The position numbers and the translations under genes were made by a program. A stretch of 64,000 bases of DNA, taken from assembly GCA_001783715.1 (NCBI GenBank), contig MFNF01000043.1, forward strand, positions 24,959-88,958. Reading direction: 5' to 3'. This stretch comes from Candidatus Lambdaproteobacteria bacterium RIFOXYD2_FULL_56_26 (lineage in GTDB: Bacteria > SAR324 > XYD2-FULL-50-16). Below the pieces are notes generated by a model, which saw only the letters and a program-made list of their open reading frames with translations, was not told the DNA's origin and made no database searches. Within the stretch, counting starts at the first letter, position 1. The number at the start of each line of letters is the position of its first letter. This document shows, piece after piece, positions 4,567-59,442 of the stretch.

Positions 4567-5439
4567 TCAGGCGGTCAAAACCTCGACTCCGGTTTCCGAC
4601 ACATACAAGGTGTGTTCGTACTGGGCGGAAAGTTTGCCGTCCACGGTCACGGCGGTCCAGTTGTCGCCGAGGATTTTTACGGCTTTGCGGCCCAGGTTGA
4701 TCATTGGTTCGATGGTAAAAAACATCCCCGGCAGGATCAAAGTCCCACTGCCGGACCGCCCGAAGTGGGGGACCTGGGGCTCTTCATGGAACTTTTTTCC
4801 GATCCCGTGGCCGACAAACTGCTCCACCACGCTGCAACCCTGGGCATGGGCATGGTTTTGGATGGCAAAGCCAATGTCCCCGATGTGCCCATAAGGCCGC
4901 ACCGCCGCAATCCCCAAGTCCAGACATTCTTTGGCCACCTGAGCAATTCTTGCCGTTTCTGGGGCCACTTCGCCGATCAGGTAGGATTTGTTGGTGTCCC
5001 CAAAGTATCCGTTCAAGATGCAGGTCACGTCCACGTTGAGTAGGTCCCCTTCCTTGACCACTACCTCAGGGGAAGGAATCCCGTGGCAGACCACCTCGTT
5101 GAGGGAGGTACAACAGCTCTTGGGGTAGCCGTGGTAATTCAAGGTCGCCGGGATGGCTCCGTGGTCCAGGGTAAACTCATGGACCCACCGGTTGATCTCT
5201 TCGGTCGTAACACCGGGACGCAGCCTTTGTTCGACCATGGTCAAGGTCGCTTTGGCGAGGTCGCAGGAAGAGCGCATCCCAGCCAGAAATTCCTGGGTCC
5301 TGGGGATCGGTTGGGGTCTTTGGGGGTTTCGGTTCAAAAGCTGCTCCTCAATGTCGTAGTTAAGATGGCACTTCTTGTATTTTTCCCCGCTACCGCACCA
5401 GCAAGGGTCGTTGCGGTTGGGCGCTGAATCCGGCTTCAC
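4567..5439 (-). CDS. map: Methionine aminopeptidase type I with SEC-C zinc motif
   Basis: A 290-residue enzyme that removes the initiator methionine from nascent proteins. The first 35 residues hold a SEC-C motif ([16 protein letters not shown]), a zinc-binding ribosome/SecA-type element found in a subset of bacterial MetAPs. The pita-bread peptidase domain follows, with metal ligands in [12 protein letters not shown] (two Asp), the GHGIG histidine, and Glu residues in [10 protein letters not shown] and the C-terminal EHTLYV. The start is GTG at 5439 and its GTGA overlaps the leuS stop by 4 bases, so translation is probably coupled. SEC-C may help docking at the ribosome; that is known for the motif, not shown here. 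Confidence 0.95.
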
Positions 5440-7853
5440 TTGAGGATCAGGTTCAAGATACGGTCGGGAACGTAAATCACCTTAACCAGGGTCCTCCCTT
5501 CCAGTTGCTTTTGGATCTTTTCGCTTTGTCTGGCCAACTCCATCACTTGCGCCTCGCTGGCCCCCAGAGGAATGGTCAGGTTGTCCCGGTGTTTGCCCAA
5601 CACCTGTACCGGGATGGTCACTTGGTCTTGCTTGAGCTTGGAAGGATCGAAGTCCGGCCAAGGCTCGTAGGCCAGGGTTCGGGTGCCCCCCAACCGGGAC
5701 CAAAGTTCTTCGGCCAGGTGAGGCGCAAAAGGGGAGAGCAACAGGACCAAACCCTGGAGCATGGCCTGATTGCGCTCCTGCTGGCCGGTCAACTCGTTGA
5801 CCATGATCATCAATTGGCTGATGGCGGTATTAAAGCGCAATGCTTCCAGGTCTTCCGTAACTTTCTTGACCGTCTCATGATAAAGCCGCTCGATCTCGGT
5901 GGAGGCCGGGGCTTCGGTCAGAGTCGTCAAAATCTGGTCTTGGTCGTCCAGGTACAGCCGCCAAAACCGGTTCAAAAACCGGTTGATCCCTTCCAGGCCC
6001 GAGGTGCTCCAGGGTTTGGACTTCTCCAGGGGCCCCATGAACATCTCGTAAAGCCGCAGGGAGTCGGCACCGTATTCTTTGACGATGTCATCGGGGTTGA
6101 TCACGTTGCCCCGGCTTTTGGACATCTTTTCCCCGTTTTCCCCCAGGATCATGCCCTGGTTGACCAGCTTCTGGAAGGGCTCCTTGGTACTGACATGGCC
6201 TTGTTCGTACAGGACCTTGTGCCAAAACCGGGAATACAGGAGGTGCAAGACGGCGTGTTCCGCTCCGCCGATGTAGAGGTCCACGGGCATCCAGTACTTC
6301 TCCGCCTCTTTGCTCCAGGCGGCTTGGTCGTTCTGGGGGTCGGTAAAGCGCAGGTAGTACCAGCAGGACCCCGCCCACTGGGGCATGGTATTGCTGCTCC
6401 GTTTGGCCGGTTGCCCGTCCGGCAAGGTGACATTGATCCACTCGGGGAGGTTGGCCAAGGGGCTTTCCCCGGTCGGAGAGGGCAAAAAGTTTTCGGTCAA
6501 AGGGGGGGTCAAGGGCAGGTCCTTGGGGTCCATGGGGAGCACCTGACCGTCTTCCTTGTGCAACAAAGGGAAAGGCTCGCCCCAGTACCTTTGGCGACTG
6601 AAAAGCCAATCCCGCAGTTTGTAGTTGATCGACCGCTTGCCTTTGCCCTGGGCTTCCAGCCAAGCGATGATCTTTTCTTTGGCCGGTTCCACCTTGAGGC
6701 CGTTCAAAAAGCCGGAATTGCACAGTTCGCCGTCTTCCGTGTGGGCCGCTGCCGTTACGTCCGCCCCGGCGATGATGTTTTTGATCGGCAGGCCAAAGGC
6801 CTTGGCGAACTCCCAATCCCGCTGGTCGTGCCCCGGAACCGCCATGATTGCCCCGGTGCCGTAGCCCATCAAAACATAGTCGGCAATCCAGATCGGCAGA
6901 TTTTCCCCGGTCACCGGATTTTTGGCATAACTGCCGGTAAAAACCCCGGTCTTCTTTTTGGCCAGATCGGTCCGGTCCAGGTCACTTTTAGCGGCACAGG
7001 CTTCTTTGTAAGCGACCACCGCTTGCCACTGGTCTTCGGAAGCGATTTGTTCGACCAAAGGATGCTCGGGAGCCAAAACGGCGTAGGTGGCACCAAACAA
7101 AGTGTCCGGCCTGGTGGTAAACACCACAAAGCTTAAGTCCGGCTTGCCCCATACCTCAAAATGGACCTCCGCCCCAATTGAGCGGCCAATCCAATGTTTT
7201 TGCATCTCTTTGACCGACACTGGCCAGTCCAGCCCTTCCAGGTCTTCCAAGAGTTTTTCTGCGTAGGCGGTGATTTTTAGCATCCATTGGCGCATCGGCT
7301 TGCGGACCACCGGGTACCCGCCTCGCTCGCTTTTGCCGTCAATCACCTCTTCGTTGGAAAGCACGGTCCTCAACTCGGGGCACCAGTTGACCGGGGCATC
7401 ATGCTCATAGGCCAATCCGGCCCCAAAGATTTGCAGGAAGATCCATTGGGTCCAACGGTAGTACTTCGGGTCGGTGGTGTTGATCTCCCGGTCCCAATCG
7501 TAGGAAAAGCCCAGCGCCTTGATCTGCCTGCGGAAGTTGTCAACGTTCACCTGGGTGGTGACCGCCGGGTGGGTCCCGGTTTGGATGGCATACTGCTCCG
7601 CCGGTAGCCCAAATGCGTCCCAACCCATGGCGTGCAGCACGTTAAAACCCTTCATCCGCTTGTACCGGCTGACGATGTCCGTGGCGGTGTAACCCTCGGG
7701 GTGCCCAACGTGTAAGCCCTGTCCGGAAGGGTAGGGGAACATGTCCAGGGCGTAGTACTTGGGCTTGTTGGGGTCGATCTCCACCTTAAAGGTCTTGTTC
7801 TGCTCCCAATGTTGTTGCCATTTGGGTTCGATTTTTCCGGGCTGGTAGGGCAT
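5436..7853 (-). CDS. leuS: Leucyl-tRNA synthetase
   Basis: An 805-residue class Ia synthetase that charges tRNA-Leu. The ATP-binding HIGH-type motif is HVGH at residues 48-51 and the KMSKS loop is intact near residue 575. Between them lies the CP1 editing domain with the conserved TTRPDT stretch, and the C-terminal half carries the anticodon-binding helices. Length is normal for bacterial LeuRS. It is the first gene of a two-gene operon with map. A sigma70-like promoter lies about 55 bases upstream. Confidence 0.97.
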
Positions 7854-8167: not shown

Positions 8168-9076
8168 ATGTGGACCCGTCAATGGCTTTGGGCTTTGCTC
8201 CTTATGGGTTTTGCCGGACAAGCGTTGGCCCAGGAAGGGTTGTTGTTTGTCGAAGAAGATGCGACCCGTGAGGTTTTTGAAGAATTGGCGGTCCGTCTGG
8301 TGGACAAGGCTAACCTGCCAGGATCGGCGGTGGTCGCCATCCTGCCGCCCAAGTCCGCTGAAGGAGGCGAGACCCCCAAATACCTCCCCTTGATGGAGGC
8401 TTCCTTGGAAACTATTTTGGCCGCCCGAGTGAAGCTGGCTGACCGCTCCAAGGTCAAAGAGATCGAAAAGGAACAACAGCTTTCATTGTCCCTGGGCAGC
8501 AGTGCGGTGACCGGCCTTCGGGTGGGGGCTTTGAAGGATGTGGATTATTTTTTGAGTGCCACCTTTACCCCGGCTGGAGAACGGGGCACCCACCTCAAGC
8601 TGACCTTGACCGATGCCCGTAGCGGCCTGATCCGGGCTTCGGCAGCCAAAACCTTTGCCATCCCCCCGGTCCTCAAAACCCCGCTCGGCCAAGACAGCGG
8701 CCAGTTCTTCGACTACCAAAAACGGTTTGAACGGGCCAAGATGTGGGAAGAGCGGGGCTACCAAGTAGCTCTGGGCGGGGCTGCACTGTTTGTCGCCGGA
8801 ATGATCACCGCTCCTTGCCAGGAAAAAAGCGAACGGGACGGAAAAAAATACTCCAACCTGGTGGAATGTAACCGCCAAGAAGGCGGCCCCGGTTACAACG
8901 GGATGATGACCGTAGCGGTATTCAGCCTCTTTTTTGGTGGCAGCGCCTACTACCTCGGCTCCAGTTGGCTGGACAATCTGAGCGAAGAAGCCCAACAAAA
9001 CCACCTCCCCCACCTCTCCTTGGCCCCGGTTGCAATCGGCCGGGAAGTGGGGCTGATTTTGGAGGGGAGGTTTTAA
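8168..9076 (+). CDS. Secreted CsgG/FlgO-like protein of unknown function
   Basis: A 302-residue protein with a signal peptide (WLWALLLMGFAGQALA) and a good ribosome-binding site GGAGGG. Residues about 40-170 resemble the CsgG/FlgO/LpoB-type alpha/beta domain: a name-the-kinase-like KVKEIEKEQQLSLSLGSSAV helix, then GALKDVDYFLSATFTP and a beta hairpin. The C-terminal part has two hydrophobic segments (about 205-222 and 250-270) separated by a loop with two Cys, which suggests membrane insertion. No lipobox cysteine is seen. The fold resemblance is from memory and moderate; the specific role is unknown. No partner gene for curli or flagella lies nearby. Confidence 0.6.
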   Translation: MWTRQWLWALLLMGFAGQALAQEGLLFVEEDATREVFEELAVRLVDKANLPGSAVVAILPPKSAEGGETPKYLPLMEASLETILAARVKLADRSKVKEIEKEQQLSLSLGSSAVTGLRVGALKDVDYFLSATFTPAGERGTHLKLTLTDARSGLIRASAAKTFAIPPVLKTPLGQDSGQFFDYQKRFERAKMWEERGYQVALGGAALFVAGMITAPCQEKSERDGKKYSNLVECNRQEGGPGYNGMMTVAVFSLFFGGSAYYLGSSWLDNLSEEAQQNHLPHLSLAPVAIGREVGLILEGRF

Positions 9077-9148: not shown

Positions 9149-11063
9149 TCATTTTGAAAAGAACTCCCCAATTTGGCTCACCCAAGCTGGAACACTTGTC
9201 CCTTTGTCTAACTCGCAGTATTTGTATGCAAATTTTACCTTATTTTCAGGGGTGAAAAATTTCTCTAATTTCTCTCTGTTAGATTCTAACAAGTCTAAGC
9301 TTTCGCAAGAATATTTTGCTTCAACTTTAATTGTTGACTGAGGCAAATCAAATCCGAGCTCGCCCACAAACGAAGATAAAGTCGAAATGAAAATGTCCGG
9401 GATCAATGCGTCCTCAATTTCAGTAACAACAGTTTTATTGCTATCTACCTCTAGGAGCTCAATTTGGTGAGTTGCCTTATTCCAAAACAATCGTCTGAAC
9501 AATATCGACTTTTGTATGTTATTGGTGGGACCTCCTCCTAAGGTCTCAACATCCGTATCTATCAAGCAATAGATTTTCCCCTTTGGGTTTGCGATTCCTT
9601 TAAGAGGAAGCAGCAAAAACTCATAGATTTTCTTGACTTCGCTGTTTCCTCCGACCGGTAAAATCCTTAATTTATATGTCTCTATCTCGTTTTTGAAGTA
9701 ATGGGTAAGGTATAGGTAATCGGAGTAGCCCTCACAAATCAGCCAATTAAATGGACTGTCAAGCTGGATGGAGTAGAATATCGACTGGACAAGGTCATGG
9801 GTACTTTTTAAATCAAAGTCAGTTGGGATTCGGCCCCTTTTCTGGTTCGCAATTTGCTCCTTATAACTGGATAAATTATAAGACTCAAACTGAATGTTTT
9901 CATCCTGGGGTCTCAAAAAATGTGCAACCCCATCGTTTATGATCGGAAGAAAGCCATACCAATGTGTGGTTGTAATAACTTGGAAATATTCTGAAAGTCT
10001 CTTTAATCGTTCAAATTGATCAAAACAAGCAGAGGTATGTAATGAAGCTTCGGGTTCATCTATTGCCAGCATAATCAGTTTTTTACGTTTTGGTTCTTTC
10101 ATAAGGAAGGCATAAGCTACCTCAATGAGAGCTTGCCTTTTTTCGCCTGAACTTAGGTCATCTATCTTGATGGAAGTGCTCTGATTCTTTTTGTTTAATG
10201 ACTTTGTATCAAAGTACCCTTCAATAATAATTTCAATAAGCCGGTTTTGCTGAAAGTTTTTTACCTTTCCTGTTTTTGAATACTCGTAGTTTTCAAGAAT
10301 TCCACCGATTTCTTCAATGTATTTTCCAAGCTCATCATTGATCGCTTTTACTATCAACGGCGCATTAATTTTTGTTGCAACTGTGTCCCGAATGTCACTT
10401 CCAACTAGTTTCTGCATTTCTGCACGTTGCAGCTTAGTGAATTCGCTTGGGCTGATTTCAACAGGAATATAAATGTAGTCACAAAAATTATGAAGTGCGT
10501 ATTGTAGTGCTTCTTTAAAATCGTCATTAAAAGCAGAATCGACATCTGATCCTTCCTTCTTGCCTTCATAAAAATGGCTATTGAAAGCGGCGCGAAAGCT
10601 GAAAGTAGAGAGACTACCATCTTGATTGTTTGCAAACAGGAAAAAAGTAGTAATCAGAGCTTTGTTTGTTTTGTTCTTTGATTTTTTTTAATAATTCCCC
10701 CCGATGTTCAAAAAAAGCCTTCATAAAAGGGTTTTGGATGTTAACTTTTATTTCCGTAACTTCCCAGAAGAACTTACTTAGTTTGTCAAGTTGCTCCAAT
10801 TGAACTTTCGTTGGCTTAACATCACCTTTGTCTATTAAGAACACCGGCGCTACATATGGGGCAATGTGAGCGCCTTGATACTTGGTGACGCTATTTGGTT
10901 GCCAACCGGCCCCATTAAAAAACGTGTCCAAAGCTTCTAAAATAGCGCTTTTCCCAATACCATTGTTTCCAACATAAGCTGTAAATTTCGAGTTAGTCGA
11001 AATCGGTATAAAATTGATGTTTTGGTAACACTTGTAATTTCTAAGAAATACGGCAGTTATCAT
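9149..11063 (-). pseudogene. OLD-family ATPase/TOPRIM nuclease, interrupted by one frameshift
   Basis: One gene of about 637 codons split by a single +1 shift. The first part (11063 to about 10614) has MITAVFLRNYKCY, Walker A GNNGIGKS (residues 32-39), and ends at a TAG. The second part continues in another frame from at least 10680 to 9149. It has the ABC signature LSSGEKRQALIEVAYAF, Walker B KLIMLAIDEPEASLH, then a TOPRIM domain with LICEGYSD (metal-binding Glu) and CLIDTDVE (DxD). This is the layout of class 1 OLD nucleases, several of which act in phage defence. The shift must lie between an A8 run (10682-10689) and the TAG at 10614. Skipping one base restores the full protein. The gene is much more AT-rich than its surroundings, indicating horizontal transfer. 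It starts 35 bases after the rsgA stop on the same strand, with GGAG upstream. Confidence 0.85.
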
Positions 11064-11097: not shown

Positions 11098-12003
11098 CTA
11101 CTCCCCCCCCTCCAGCAACCCCACATAACCGGCGTAGAGGTCCTTGTCGATGCGGCCGGCTTCGACTTCGGCTTTGACGAAACAGTGGGGTTCGTGGGTG
11201 TGGGTGCAGTCGGCGTGTTTGCAGTGGCCGCTGAACTGGCGGATCAGAGGGAAGTGGTCTCGGATGTTTTTGGGCTCCAGGTTCCAAAGGCCAAACTCCC
11301 GGACTCCAGGGGTGTCGATCACCGCTCCGGTGGGGCCGACATTGAGCATCCGGGCGTAGGTGGTGGTGTGGCTGCCTTTAGAGGTCTTTTCGTTGACCTC
11401 CCCCACCTTGAGGTCCAGGTCCGGGAACAACCGGTTGAGCAGGCTGGACTTGCCGACCCCCGAATGCCCGGCGACCACCGAGACATTACCGCCCAAAAGG
11501 TCGGCCAGCCGGTTGTCGTCGGCACCGCCGCCTTTGCTGCTGAAAAGGATTTCCAGGTCGATGTTCAAGAAGGGACGTAGCCAGGGGAGGTCCTTGTGGT
11601 GGTGGACCAAGTCCAGCTTGGTCACCAACAGGACCGGTCTGACCGAGCCTAGGTTGGCGGCGACCAACATCCGCCAGACCAGCCCCGGTTTGGGCTCCGG
11701 GTCTTTGGCGGCGACCACCAGAAACATTAGGTCCAGGTTAGCGGCGATCACCTGCTCCACCTCAATCCCCACCCTAGTGCGGGACAAAAAGCTTTTGCGG
11801 GGTAGGACCCCTTGGATCATGCCCAATTCCTGCCCTGGCTCCAGTTGGTAGGTAACTTTATCGCCAACGGCAATCTGGTTGTCGTATTTGCTGTTCCTAA
11901 AGAGGCTGCCCTTGGCCTTACATTCGATTTCTTGGCCCTCAGGGGTGGTCAAGTAATAAAAGCCCTTGGTGCGGCGGACCACGGTGGCGACGGCTTCGGT
12001 CAT
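11098..12003 (-). CDS. rsgA: Ribosome small-subunit-dependent GTPase A
   Basis: A 301-residue circularly permuted GTPase that assists late 30S ribosome maturation. An N-terminal OB fold (about residues 5-75) is followed by the permuted G motifs: VTKLDL (G4), GHSGVGKSSLLNRL (G1) and DTPGVREF (G3). The C-terminal zinc finger is GHCKHADCTHTHEPHC. The ATG at 12003 fits family N-termini; a TTG nine codons upstream (12030) is possible. Neither has a strong ribosome-binding site. The AT-rich OLD gene follows immediately downstream on the same strand and could be read from the rsgA transcript. Confidence 0.95.
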   Translation of the reverse strand: MTEAVATVVRRTKGFYYLTTPEGQEIECKAKGSLFRNSKYDNQIAVGDKVTYQLEPGQELGMIQGVLPRKSFLSRTRVGIEVEQVIAANLDLMFLVVAAKDPEPKPGLVWRMLVAANLGSVRPVLLVTKLDLVHHHKDLPWLRPFLNIDLEILFSSKGGGADDNRLADLLGGNVSVVAGHSGVGKSSLLNRLFPDLDLKVGEVNEKTSKGSHTTTYARMLNVGPTGAVIDTPGVREFGLWNLEPKNIRDHFPLIRQFSGHCKHADCTHTHEPHCFVKAEVEAGRIDKDLYAGYVGLLEGGE

Positions 12004-12091
12004 GGGCGGGTCGGTCAGATTGAGGTTCAAGGGGCAGAAACGGGGTCAGCTTACTTTATCTGGCCGCCCTTTGGCAAGAATTTCAGGGCCA

Positions 12092-55289: not shown

Positions 55290-57317
55290 ATGGACCAAAC
55301 CAGCCTGACCCAAGCGCAACAAAAACTGGAACTCCTGCCCGATGAGCCGGGGGTGTACCGTTTTTTGGACGGCAAGGGAAAGATCATCTACATTGGCAAG
55401 GCCAAGAACCTGAAAAAAAGGGTCAAAAGCTACTTTACCCCCCGTGCCGCCGTGGACCCCCGGATTGTGGCACTGGTGCCGATGATCAAAGACTTGGCTT
55501 GGATCGTCACCAAAAACGAGATTGAGGCCCTGATCCTGGAAAACCAGATGATCAAGACCCACCGGCCCAAGTACAATGTTGAGCTCAAGGACGACAAGAC
55601 CTACCCCTACTTCCGGTTGACCGTTGGAGAACTTTTTCCCCGGTTGTCGTTGGTTCGTAACCCCAAAAAGGACCGGGCCTTGTACTTTGGCCCCTATGTG
55701 GCGGTCCGCACCGCCCGTGAAGCCCTGGCCACGATCAGGAGGTTCTTCCCCTTACGGCAATCCAAAATGGAGCTGGACGGCAGCAAGACCTACAAACCTT
55801 GCCTCAACTTCCAGCTCAAACGATGCCTCGCCCCCTGTTCGGGCCAAGTGGCGGTGGAGGAGTACGGCAAATTGGTGGAAAAAGTGGTCTGGCTGCTCAA
55901 GGGCAACTATGAGGAACTGCTCAAACAGCTGCAATCAGAGATGCAAAAACGCTCCGAAGCAATGAGGTTTGAAGAAGCCGCGGCCCTACGGGACCAAATC
56001 CGCTCCTTGGAACGGACCTTCACCAAACAGCAGGTTTTGAGCAAAGAACGGATCGACCGGGACATCCTCTCCCTGGTCCGGCAAGGGGGCTTTGCCGGGG
56101 TTGAGGTGCTGTTTGTGAGGGGTGGCATCCTGCTTTCAGACGACTTTTTGTTTTTTAAGGAAGGGGGCCTGTACTCGGACCAGGAACTCCTCCGGGCGGC
56201 CCTGACCAAGCTCTACTTCGCCGGGGAAAAACCTCTGCCCAAAGAGATTTTGCTCCCTGAAGTCAACGACGACATTTTGATCCTGGAAGAATACTTCTCC
56301 ATCCGCCGGGAATCGAAGGTGACGATCCTCAACCCCCAGCGAGGGGACAAGCTCAGGCTCCTGGAAATGGCCACCCGCAACGGGGAGGAGAACCTCAAGC
56401 AAAGGCTCGCCGGGGCGCAGGCGGAAGAACAGATTTTGGCAGAGGTCCAAAACCACCTGCACCTGACCCGCAGCCCGGTCCGGGCCGAGTGTTTCGACAT
56501 CTCCAACCTGATGGGCAAACATTCGGTGGCCAGTATGGTGGTCTTTGAAAACGGCAAGCCCCTCAAGTCGGACTACCGAATTTTTAAGATTAAAACGGTG
56601 GAGGGACCCAACGACTTTGCCAGCATGGAAGAGGTCTTGACCCGTAGGTACGGTAGGCTCTTAGAAGAAGGCGGCGCTTGGCCGGACTTGATCATCATCG
56701 ACGGGGGATTGGGGCAGCTGAACAGCGCCATCCGCATTTTGACCGGCCTCGGGGTCAACCTGGAAACCACCGACCTGATCGGCCTCGCCAAAGGGCGCTC
56801 CGAAAAGGCAAAGGACCAAAAACGAAAGGACCGGGCGGAAGAACGGCCTGGGAGCCTGGAAACCCAAGCAGCACCGGAGCCAAACCGGGAGGAACAAGAG
56901 CGCCGGGACCCAGCCGGGGAAGATTCAGGGGACCTGGAAGCCCAAAGACCTGCCCCCGTGGCCCCAGGGGAAGCGGGGCACAACCCGGAGGAGGACTTTG
57001 AATATGTAGTCAAACCCAACCGGAAAAACCCGATCCCCTTACGGAAAAACAGCAGCCCCCTGTTCTTTTTGCAACGGATCCGGGACGAGGCCCACCGCTT
57101 TGCCATCACTCACCACCGCAAGCTCCGGGGCAAAGCGGCGGTCAAGTCCAGCCTCGAAGACATTCCAGGCATCGGCCCCAAAAAACGGGCCGCCTTGCTC
57201 AAACACTTCGGCAGCCTCCAAGCCCTCGAATCCGCCACCCCCGACCAACTCGCCCAAGTCCCCGGCCTCGGCCCTAAGGATGTGGTGATGCTGACGGGGT
57301 ATTTTGAGGCAGGTTGA
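55290..57317 (+). CDS. uvrC: Excinuclease ABC subunit C with linker insertion
   Basis: A 675-residue UvrC. The GIY-YIG nuclease (about 15-95; GVYRFLDGKGKIIYIGKAKNLKKRV), UvrB-interacting UVR motif (about 215-250), RNase H-like 5' incision domain with DGGLGQL, and C-terminal HhH2 (IPGIGPKKRAALLKHFG, VPGLGPKD) are present. Between LIGLAKGR and the PIPLRKNSSPLF segment lies an extra charged, Pro/Glu-rich stretch of about 65 residues (about 503-568) not normal for the family. It joins the two halves of the incision domain. The start ATG at 55290 fits the family; its 3' end overlaps the convergent KAP gene by 44 bases. Confidence 0.95.
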   Translation: MDQTSLTQAQQKLELLPDEPGVYRFLDGKGKIIYIGKAKNLKKRVKSYFTPRAAVDPRIVALVPMIKDLAWIVTKNEIEALILENQMIKTHRPKYNVELKDDKTYPYFRLTVGELFPRLSLVRNPKKDRALYFGPYVAVRTAREALATIRRFFPLRQSKMELDGSKTYKPCLNFQLKRCLAPCSGQVAVEEYGKLVEKVVWLLKGNYEELLKQLQSEMQKRSEAMRFEEAAALRDQIRSLERTFTKQQVLSKERIDRDILSLVRQGGFAGVEVLFVRGGILLSDDFLFFKEGGLYSDQELLRAALTKLYFAGEKPLPKEILLPEVNDDILILEEYFSIRRESKVTILNPQRGDKLRLLEMATRNGEENLKQRLAGAQAEEQILAEVQNHLHLTRSPVRAECFDISNLMGKHSVASMVVFENGKPLKSDYRIFKIKTVEGPNDFASMEEVLTRRYGRLLEEGGAWPDLIIIDGGLGQLNSAIRILTGLGVNLETTDLIGLAKGRSEKAKDQKRKDRAEERPGSLETQAAPEPNREEQERRDPAGEDSGDLEAQRPAPVAPGEAGHNPEEDFEYVVKPNRKNPIPLRKNSSPLFFLQRIRDEAHRFAITHHRKLRGKAAVKSSLEDIPGIGPKKRAALLKHFGSLQALESATPDQLAQVPGLGPKDVVMLTGYFEAG

Positions 57318-59442
57318 GTTGCTTTTGTCCGGCCCGGTCCACATAGTCCTGCAACAAAACATAGTCCGGTGCGGTAGGTTCGTGGGAGTCGAGGTAGGCT
57401 TGGGCTCTCTCCAAAAAGACGGCTGGGGGGACAAAACTTTCTAACTTTCCATCCTCTATTTGCCTTGTACCAAATCTGTCAGTGCGGTCGAAAATTGGCT
57501 GTCCAAGTGAACAGTTGGCGATCAGGCTTAAGCCCACTTCCGTTTGGACTGTTTTAAGACAATACTCTCGAAGCTTGTCCTGCTCTTGGTCATCACCCCA
57601 CTTTGCCCAAGACCAAATCAAAACTTGAGCTCCAAAATCGGTAGGGAACCCATCCGATTGGGCAAGTTCACTGATTTTTTGTATGGCAATTCGCTTTATT
57701 TCTTTTAGAGCCGATGGGCTCAAGGTCCGTTCCTCAACAGGCCGGTTGCTGGCCTCTTTTTCTTCTAAAGCAAAATCTCTAGTTAAGCTGATCAAGAGGC
57801 TCAGCTCGACCTTGGCACTGTTTATCGACCGCAGCAAAAGGTCTGACCGAGACTTTTGGTCCTTTTCTCTTTTTAACAAACCCAAAACCAACCGATCACC
57901 GCTAGAGTAGGTCCAGCCTTCATCAAAGCGGGTTGGGAACAGGGTTTCACTGGCTTTTAAAAAAGCCTTTAACAAGGGTTCAACCGATTCCATCGGGAGT
58001 TGGTCCACAAAGTCCAAAAGAAAGTTCGGGAAATCCGTATATCTTTGTGGCGCTACCAACTGGAGCATTCGTTCGGTAATACCCTCCCAGTCTTTTCCGT
58101 CCTCCAAAATGCGGGACACAAGACCGCTGGTCAGCTGCCCTGGGGAGAGCGACAGGTTAAAATATGCGTTAAAATGCTCTGGAGCACTGATTCGGTTGTT
58201 TTGGATGGCCTCTTTTCGCCTACTGCTTATGTCTTGAAAACTATAGTCAGAACTGATGCGCGGGAAAAGTTCTGCTAAGGAAAAGTAGTTGGTTTCTTTT
58301 CTAAAATTACTTCCCAATAAGTCAATTAGGTTGGTTTGATACCGTGTTGTCTCAGGCTCAACCTCATTATACGAAAGCTGTGTTTCCCATTCCCCACGTA
58401 CTGGCTCCCAAAACAGTTCTGGATGTTCCTGAATCTTGGCATGTACTTCCGGGACGAGGATTTCCAGCGCCAAAATCCCAATCAGGTCCAACAGGTCCAC
58501 TTCCTCCCTGAGGGCACCCAAGGCAAAGTCCAGCCGGTTGAGCAACTTGATGGGACCCCGGAGGGTCTTAAACTGCCGGTCCAGTTGCAGACTGTCGTAG
58601 CTATCAAATCGCTCTGTTTGCCAAAGTTTCTCCAAATCGATCTGGTGGCTCTTGCAGGTGGCTTGTAGTCCATCACGGAGGAATTTGTCGATTTGCACCC
58701 TGCCGAGTGCGGGCAAGGGGAAGGGCATCTGGATGATTTTGTCCAGGTATCCTTTGCCAAATCCTGGCTGAGAACTCTCCAAGGCCTGTTCAATCACTTC
58801 ACGGTCAAACCCAAGGACATAAACGGTATTGGGAAAGTCGGCCAGGGATTTGACCAACTGGAACATCTGGTTGATCTCGGTGAAGTTCAACCGGTCCAGC
58901 TCATCAATAAAAATGACCAGCTTGAGTTTGTTGTCTCGGATAGCCGAAGCGATTCCTGCTTTGGCCGCTTCGACCGACAGAGGCTCTTGTGCACCAAACG
59001 CTTTGGAGAGGCCCTTTATGCCACTGATGGCCAGCTTGACCAACGAATGAGACTCTCCCAGGGGCTTAACCGCAACACTCAATGCTTCTAACAGCTTGGC
59101 AATTTTTTGGTTAGACTCGCCCTCTCCCTGTTTTAACACTCCTGCCCGAAAGGCCCGGAAAAACTGTTCGATCAGTTGGTCTTGGTTGGCATAGTGCCAA
59201 GGTTGGAACTCCAAGAGGGCCAGCTTTTTCCCGTCTTTCTCAAAGGCTTCTTTCTTTTCTTTCAGACTGCCTTTGAGCAGATTCAAAAAAGAGCTTTTCC
59301 CGGTCCCCCAAGCGCCGGTGACCCCTACCACCAGACTGGCCCCTTCTCCTGCCGCCAAAACCGCTGCAGCCAGTCGCTCGGCCAAGGGAGCTCGGTCCAA
59401 AAGATCTTCTTTTGGTTCTTTGATTGCTTCATCAATCCGCAT
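57274..59442 (-). CDS. KAP-family P-loop NTPase
   Basis: A 722-residue STAND-like KAP NTPase. Walker A is GAWGTGKS (43-50), followed by LLEFQPWHYANQDQL, and Walker B LVIFIDELDR (175-184). FPNTVYVLGFDREV is a further KAP motif. Unlike many KAP proteins it has no clear TM insertion between the motifs; the long C-terminal half is helical with no recognised effector. KAP NTPases occur in membranes, plasmids and some candidate defence islands. Base composition is somewhat more AT-rich than in neighbouring genes, which suggests transfer. It stands alone; its 3' end overlaps uvrC. Confidence 0.88.
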   Translation of the reverse strand: MRIDEAIKEPKEDLLDRAPLAERLAAAVLAAGEGASLVVGVTGAWGTGKSSFLNLLKGSLKEKKEAFEKDGKKLALLEFQPWHYANQDQLIEQFFRAFRAGVLKQGEGESNQKIAKLLEALSVAVKPLGESHSLVKLAISGIKGLSKAFGAQEPLSVEAAKAGIASAIRDNKLKLVIFIDELDRLNFTEINQMFQLVKSLADFPNTVYVLGFDREVIEQALESSQPGFGKGYLDKIIQMPFPLPALGRVQIDKFLRDGLQATCKSHQIDLEKLWQTERFDSYDSLQLDRQFKTLRGPIKLLNRLDFALGALREEVDLLDLIGILALEILVPEVHAKIQEHPELFWEPVRGEWETQLSYNEVEPETTRYQTNLIDLLGSNFRKETNYFSLAELFPRISSDYSFQDISSRRKEAIQNNRISAPEHFNAYFNLSLSPGQLTSGLVSRILEDGKDWEGITERMLQLVAPQRYTDFPNFLLDFVDQLPMESVEPLLKAFLKASETLFPTRFDEGWTYSSGDRLVLGLLKREKDQKSRSDLLLRSINSAKVELSLLISLTRDFALEEKEASNRPVEERTLSPSALKEIKRIAIQKISELAQSDGFPTDFGAQVLIWSWAKWGDDQEQDKLREYCLKTVQTEVGLSLIANCSLGQPIFDRTDRFGTRQIEDGKLESFVPPAVFLERAQAYLDSHEPTAPDYVLLQDYVDRAGQKQLNLPQNTPSASPHP

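Follow-up and report, generated by a model that had tools for sequence, protein, structure and literature searches.

The described systems closest to the gene treated here are those built around an OLD protein. In Class 1, to which P2 Old, Thermus scotoductus OLD and E. coli YbjD/OldB belong, an ABC ATPase and a TOPRIM domain are joined in one protein encoded by a gene without a partner, and Class 1 is the single-gene OLD by the definition given in PMC10568477. Isolated Class 1 genes are described in a passage of PMC13261556 as rare, and YbjD as toxic at higher expression. PARIS is made of AriA and AriB, which are sometimes fused; the system and its fused form are described in parts of PMC12409363. 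In the account given in PMC12839542, TOPRIM-linked OLD ATPases and PARIS-like modules are backup effectors in BREX. Class 2 comprises OLD proteins such as GajA of Gabija, and Class 3 the OLD effector of retron-Eco8.

The window, by which we mean the whole 64-kb stretch of DNA analysed, carries a gene of this kind between rsgA and leuS. We consider it probable that this is an acquired stand-alone OLD gene inactivated by a small recent deletion. It is read in two frames, designated frame 0 and frame 1, and the features of the locus are as follows.

11098..12009, minus strand: rsgA, the upstream flank (Pfam RsgA_GTPase, E 1.9e-45)
11063-9149, minus strand: the OLD-type gene as a whole, in two frames
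10614..11063, minus strand: frame 0, first part of the ABC ATPase domain, ATG 11063 to TAG 10614, 149 aa
10947..10970, minus strand: Walker A GNNGIGKS, from the frame 0 translation
10682..10689, minus strand: A8 tract on the gene strand, ~40 nt before the meeting point of the frames
10641..10646, minus strand: T6 run on the gene strand, followed at once by the conserved Pro codon; the sequence-only reading did not name it
10631..10640, minus strand: meeting point of the frames as placed by the profile, with the Pro codon at 10640-10638
9149..10687, minus strand: frame 1, rest of the ATPase domain and TOPRIM domain, 512 open codons, TAA 9149
10139..10156, minus strand: ABC signature LSSGEK, from the frame 1 translation and alignment
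10049..10069, minus strand: Walker B LAIDEPE, from the frame 1 translation and alignment
9152..9838, minus strand: C-terminal region with the TOPRIM domain, from the AlphaFold2 model and structure matches
about 9728-9742 and 9551-9559, minus strand: acidic motifs ICEG and DTD, respectively, in the TOPRIM region
5436-7853: presumably leuS, the other flank of the insertion

Like Class 1 OLD, the gene joins an ABC ATPase and a TOPRIM domain in one protein and stands without a partner. The similarity to Class 1 is nevertheless low (PADLOC Old, E 3.7e-10 over part of frame 1), the protein would have about 640 residues against about 550-580 in Class 1 (profile length 578), and the window copy is broken. 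The PADLOC model of AriA is the best one for 12 of 12 members of the gene's family, with a best E of 2e-26, and the fused AriAB model matches nine of the 12. In contrast to PARIS, the window gene encodes one protein and has no separate AriB. Gabija shares the two-domain fold, as described below, but the PADLOC match to GajA is weak (E 6e-6), and no GajB-like helicase is seen among the ORFs neighbouring the window gene. Neither a UvrD-like helicase nor a reverse transcriptase gene, the latter a difference from retron-Eco8, was recognised beside the gene, judging from the names given to its neighbours by their sequence. By context the gene is placed in Class 1, but the PADLOC scores favour AriA, so that Class 1 OLD and fused PARIS are both candidates.

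The family identity is borne out by domains and structure. Pfam AAA_15 matches both halves of the gene, and OLD-like_TOPRIM (PF20469) matches the second half with E 8e-4, below its curated cut-off. GNNGIGKS, LSSGEK and LAIDEPE, which we take to be the Walker A, ABC signature and Walker B motifs, are all present and are spread over the two frames. In the TOPRIM region, the E of CEG and DTD are invariant in 34 of 34 alignment rows. The AlphaFold2 model of this region of the window (mean pLDDT 88.3) is best matched by the C-terminal domain of a Class 2 OLD, 6nk8_A (Z 11.2, rmsd 3.4, 162 aligned), a better fit than that to the PARIS complex 8ux9_A (Z 8.4, rmsd 5.0, 160 aligned). Further matches are retron Eco2 9lm3_A (Z 8.4, rmsd 3.9, 170 aligned) and Ts OLD 6p74 (Z 7.6, rmsd 3.4, 128 aligned). 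As modelled, the C-terminal TOPRIM domain is folded like those of OLD nucleases. A full-length intact relative, L091, was also modelled (mean pLDDT 83.9). Over both domains it matches retron-Eco8 OLD 9lpa_B (Z 16.0, rmsd 18.8, 426 aligned), GajA 8x5i_D (Z 15.8, rmsd 16.7, 424 aligned) and Ts OLD 6p74 (Z 14.2, rmsd 14.6, 402 aligned), a likeness to Class 3 and Class 2 as well as Class 1, and it also matches many SMC-type ATPase heads. A phmmer search against solved structures returned two chance matches and no OLD entry, and NCBIfam gave nothing on frame 1 and only matches far below cut-off on frame 0. The sequence-only reading had called the gene an OLD-type nuclease, with which AAA_15 on both halves and the TOPRIM fold agree, and the defence role that it proposed is probable by analogy.

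From the characterised OLD and PARIS proteins, we infer that the most likely role of the gene, when intact, is that of an anti-phage effector needing no partner gene. Its ATPase part would restrain the metal-dependent TOPRIM nuclease until it senses infection, and the released nuclease would cleave nucleic acid, stopping the phage or the infected cell. In the window copy, a deletion of net about 5 nt just after the Pro codon has most likely shifted the remainder of the gene into another frame. The stub that translation would then give has 149 residues and retains Walker A. The window gene is most likely inactive, since this stub lacks the signature, Walker B and the TOPRIM domain. The source assembly consists of 68 contigs and may contain errors.

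The position of the frame change was located with a profile of 46 full-length relatives in which no window sequence was included. The short or cut L027, L029, L045, L046 and L047 were left out from an initial 42 (L007-L047 and an Acinetobacter protein), and L088, L108 and L072 from 12 later loci, L072 being open throughout; the 46 rows contain near-duplicates, for instance L013-L016 and L018-L020. All 46 encode the OLD protein in one frame. Frame 0 corresponds to model positions 1-140 (138.6 bits), ending at PVCK, and frame 1 to positions 141-643 (478.8 bits), starting at ANNQDG. The two matches abut at 140/141 and place the join at about 10640-10631, some 40 bases beyond the A8 tract and also beyond the T6 run. 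The stop codons alone bracket the change between about 10690 and 10614; the TAA at 10690-10688, whose last two bases lie inside the A8 tract, sets the opening limit of frame 1. The 1915 nt less one base make 638 codons including the stop. Much of what the sequence-only reading had proposed is confirmed by these results: one OLD protein encoded in two frames at these coordinates, a single disruption lying between the A8 tract and the TAG at 10614 with frame 1 otherwise open, and about 637 codons after a one-base skip. A second site that it had suggested, AAACAA near 10627-10634, is close to the meeting point found here.

Both the residues and the spacing at the join are altered. A proline, which is P in 43 of the 46 relatives, is read in frame 0 just before the join. 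The glycine two residues after it is present in 46 of 46 relatives and absent from both window frames. In every one of the 46 relatives 13 residues (39 nt) or more separate the proline from the downstream anchor, exactly 13 in 29 of them, as against 34 nt in the window. All allowed crossing points were scanned with a 37-row profile: a crossing placed after the proline scored 598.1 bits, one at A8 594.3 and one at T6 592.5. The late crossing is thus preferred by a modest 3.8 bits to A8 and 5.6 bits to T6. The missing glycine and the short loop make a stronger argument than these bit differences. Since the loop is about 5 nt short and the invariant glycine is gone, a one-base homopolymer slip alone is insufficient. 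One small deletion, of net about 5 nt, probably explains the frames, the glycine and the loop together, whereas a one-base slip needs a second, earlier change. The window protein is, however, a lone long branch in a quick tree, which itself warns of long branches; an ancestor could therefore already have had a short loop without the glycine, and a one-base event at T6 or A8 would then be possible.

The rest of the gene is well kept. Read through with X at the join, the window copy retains 80 of 84 near-invariant residues, one of the four lost positions being the glycine at the lesion. Because these residues are so well kept, the gene was probably working until recently, and the best reading of the sequence is that its loss is recent, with everything else preserved. 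By descent the gene belongs to the OLD family, but it is no longer a single intact open reading frame and its product is broken.

Such preservation, in an assembly of 68 contigs, would also suit a sequencing or assembly error, with the gene intact in the organism. The usual error is a one-base change in a homopolymer, however, while here a net loss of ~5 nt and of a conserved residue lies outside any homopolymer, and broken members are found in other genomes too. We therefore consider an error unlikely.

In the sequence-only reading the gene was taken to be possibly phase-variable. On such a view, slippage at A8 (or at T6) would toggle a costly OLD nuclease in part of the population. Both tracts do lie within the stretch in which the frames could be joined by changing one base, and OLD proteins can be toxic when expressed, as a passage of PMC13261556 describes for YbjD. 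Nevertheless, the profile puts the frame change past both tracts, at 10640-10631 and not inside a repeat, although by a modest bit margin, and the missing glycine and the ~5 nt go beyond any one-base slip. The A8 run is itself unremarkable, since such runs are expected by chance in so AT-rich a gene: 2,000 first-order Markov resamples, used in place of exact shuffles, gave 1.27 A8/T8 runs per gene and a P(>=1) of 0.72, where one is observed. The window as a whole has 14 A/T runs of eight or more. Phase variation is accordingly very unlikely, and the claim for the A8 tract is not upheld. There is a slightly slimmer chance that the gene can still function: within the tract-rich 10631-10716, slippage or recoding would give a low level of full-length OLD without the glycine, and thus a switchable defence in part of the population.

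Programmed recoding, whether by ribosomal frameshifting or by transcriptional slippage, could likewise produce a full-length protein. The 512 codons of frame 1 are all open and well conserved, and the T6 run lies directly before the meeting point. This is hardly probable, however, given that 46 of 46 profile relatives are single-frame, that inspection by eye for familiar motifs revealed no known +1 signal, and that the glycine would be absent even so. Least probable of all is an old decaying pseudogene long without selection, for although the gene is disrupted and one relative, L027, has several lesions, the window copy has one disruption only and 512 open codons, and keeps a larger part of its near-invariant residues than some intact long-branch relatives (L007, 76/89; L070, 79/91; L071, 71/91).

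A recently acquired gene that was lost by a small deletion, the reading that we prefer, also fits the composition of the locus. The GC of the OLD gene is 37.7% as compared with 56.6% for the window, and its region is the lowest-GC stretch of that size in the window (0.377, where the mean is 0.565 and the SD 0.034). At third codon positions the two halves of the gene have a GC of 0.378 and 0.382, leuS and rsgA one of 0.76-0.80. This near-equal composition, unlike that of rsgA and leuS, indicates that both halves are one foreign gene. The OLD ATG lies 34 nt past the rsgA stop, with GGAG eight bases upstream of the ATG. On the other side the gene is flanked by an ORF at 8168-9076, then by leuS and leuC, names that we presume from the sequence. 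A comparison of the rsgA locus, which had been suggested by the sequence-only reading, was made in nine family relatives. In all nine leuS adjoins rsgA, with 87-593 nt between match ends; in one of them, G008, the rsgA gene is divided between two contigs, with leuS next to its terminal part. In the window the distance between rsgA and leuS is 3.2 kb, occupied by the OLD gene and the ORF at 8168-9076. The claims that the gene is AT-rich relative to its flanks, sits directly after rsgA and is a recent acquisition are all supported by these data.

The other 57 genomes of the kinship search yielded no further member, and neither did the phylum's other 51 genomes when searched with a profile, where three weak matches were short ATPase stretches only (E about 1e-4); the profile of this search (A4) included the frame 1 protein of the window, and match boundaries from it were not used. 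Flanking direct repeats were sought as insertion marks and none was convincing. The foreign composition and patchy distribution are best read, from sequence, as recent acquisition.

Three other features of the window were observed. The ORF at 8168-9076, on the plus strand, has host GC, a signal-like start and no Pfam match, and has one relative (37%) among 38 other genomes. The final codons of rsgA, immediately ahead of the stop, contain a run of eight C at 11103-11110 (G8 when read on the gene strand). The minus strand at 57274-59442 encodes a KAP-family P-loop ATPase of 722 aa (Pfam KAP_NTPase, E 1.9e-46); this is possibly another acquired gene, located in the second AT-richer stretch of the window, where GC falls to 0.47.

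Relatives of the OLD gene occur in mobile settings. For instance, that of the Acinetobacter plasmid p10FS3-1-4 (L003, 5569-7503) is intact, has 644 residues, is 36% identical, and is flanked by pglX and pglZ in a BREX locus, a position matching what is said of TOPRIM-OLD modules in PMC12839542. Tblastn with Acinetobacter brxC, pglX, pglZ and brxL gave no match in the loci of 41 relatives (L007-L047), and the BREX setting of L003 is therefore one case. BREX membership of the window copy itself was considered and rejected, its genome being without PglZ and these 41 loci without BREX genes.

Of the neighbouring ORFs of 34 loci, 72 of 107 were scanned, and among the matches listed for these 72 are eight integrases, seven CI repressors, four portal proteins, three P2 GpR and two sets of type I restriction genes; the portal and GpR matches recall the P2-like prophage in which P2 old has its niche. 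No UvrD-kind helicase appeared near the relatives in the best 25 of 66 families from the same 72 neighbours. A plasmid search returned 16 records, all below 60% identity and 15 of them from Lactiplantibacillus. No close relative was found in phages, or in viral contigs with a single-protein scan. Viral-contig scans yielded 21 and then 29 contigs, partly the same, and a genome-contig scan yielded 20. In Vibrionaceae 15 of 296 genomes matched, and six were counted as true members by score.

Broken copies are not confined to the window. Five of 54 relatives (53 loci and the Acinetobacter protein) are broken, namely L027, L029, L045, L047 and L088, and three more (L028, L046 and L108) are cut by contig ends. 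L029, from Vibrio splendidus 12E03, has an in-frame TAA (about 7953) at residue 133, near the position of the window break, and the lesion is a point nonsense change and no tract slip. L088 has a nonsense codon near 287, while L045, L047 and L027, the last with several lesions, carry frameshifts or gaps; L047 comes from a contig of coverage 2.3. In the window copy and the five broken relatives alike, fewer than about 290 of the about 645 residues precede the first lesion. As a weaker companion idea, noticed after the fact, the OLD lineage may have been silenced repeatedly and early in the gene.

Our study suggests that a profile of relatives is a cheap test of claims of phase variation made from a single assembly, as it locates the join and reveals missing parts; here it argues for plain loss of function. 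The window copy itself looks ordinary, a probable defence gene recently gained and recently lost. With it, a little-studied OLD lineage of prophages, plasmids and restriction/BREX islands is extended by a diverged branch.
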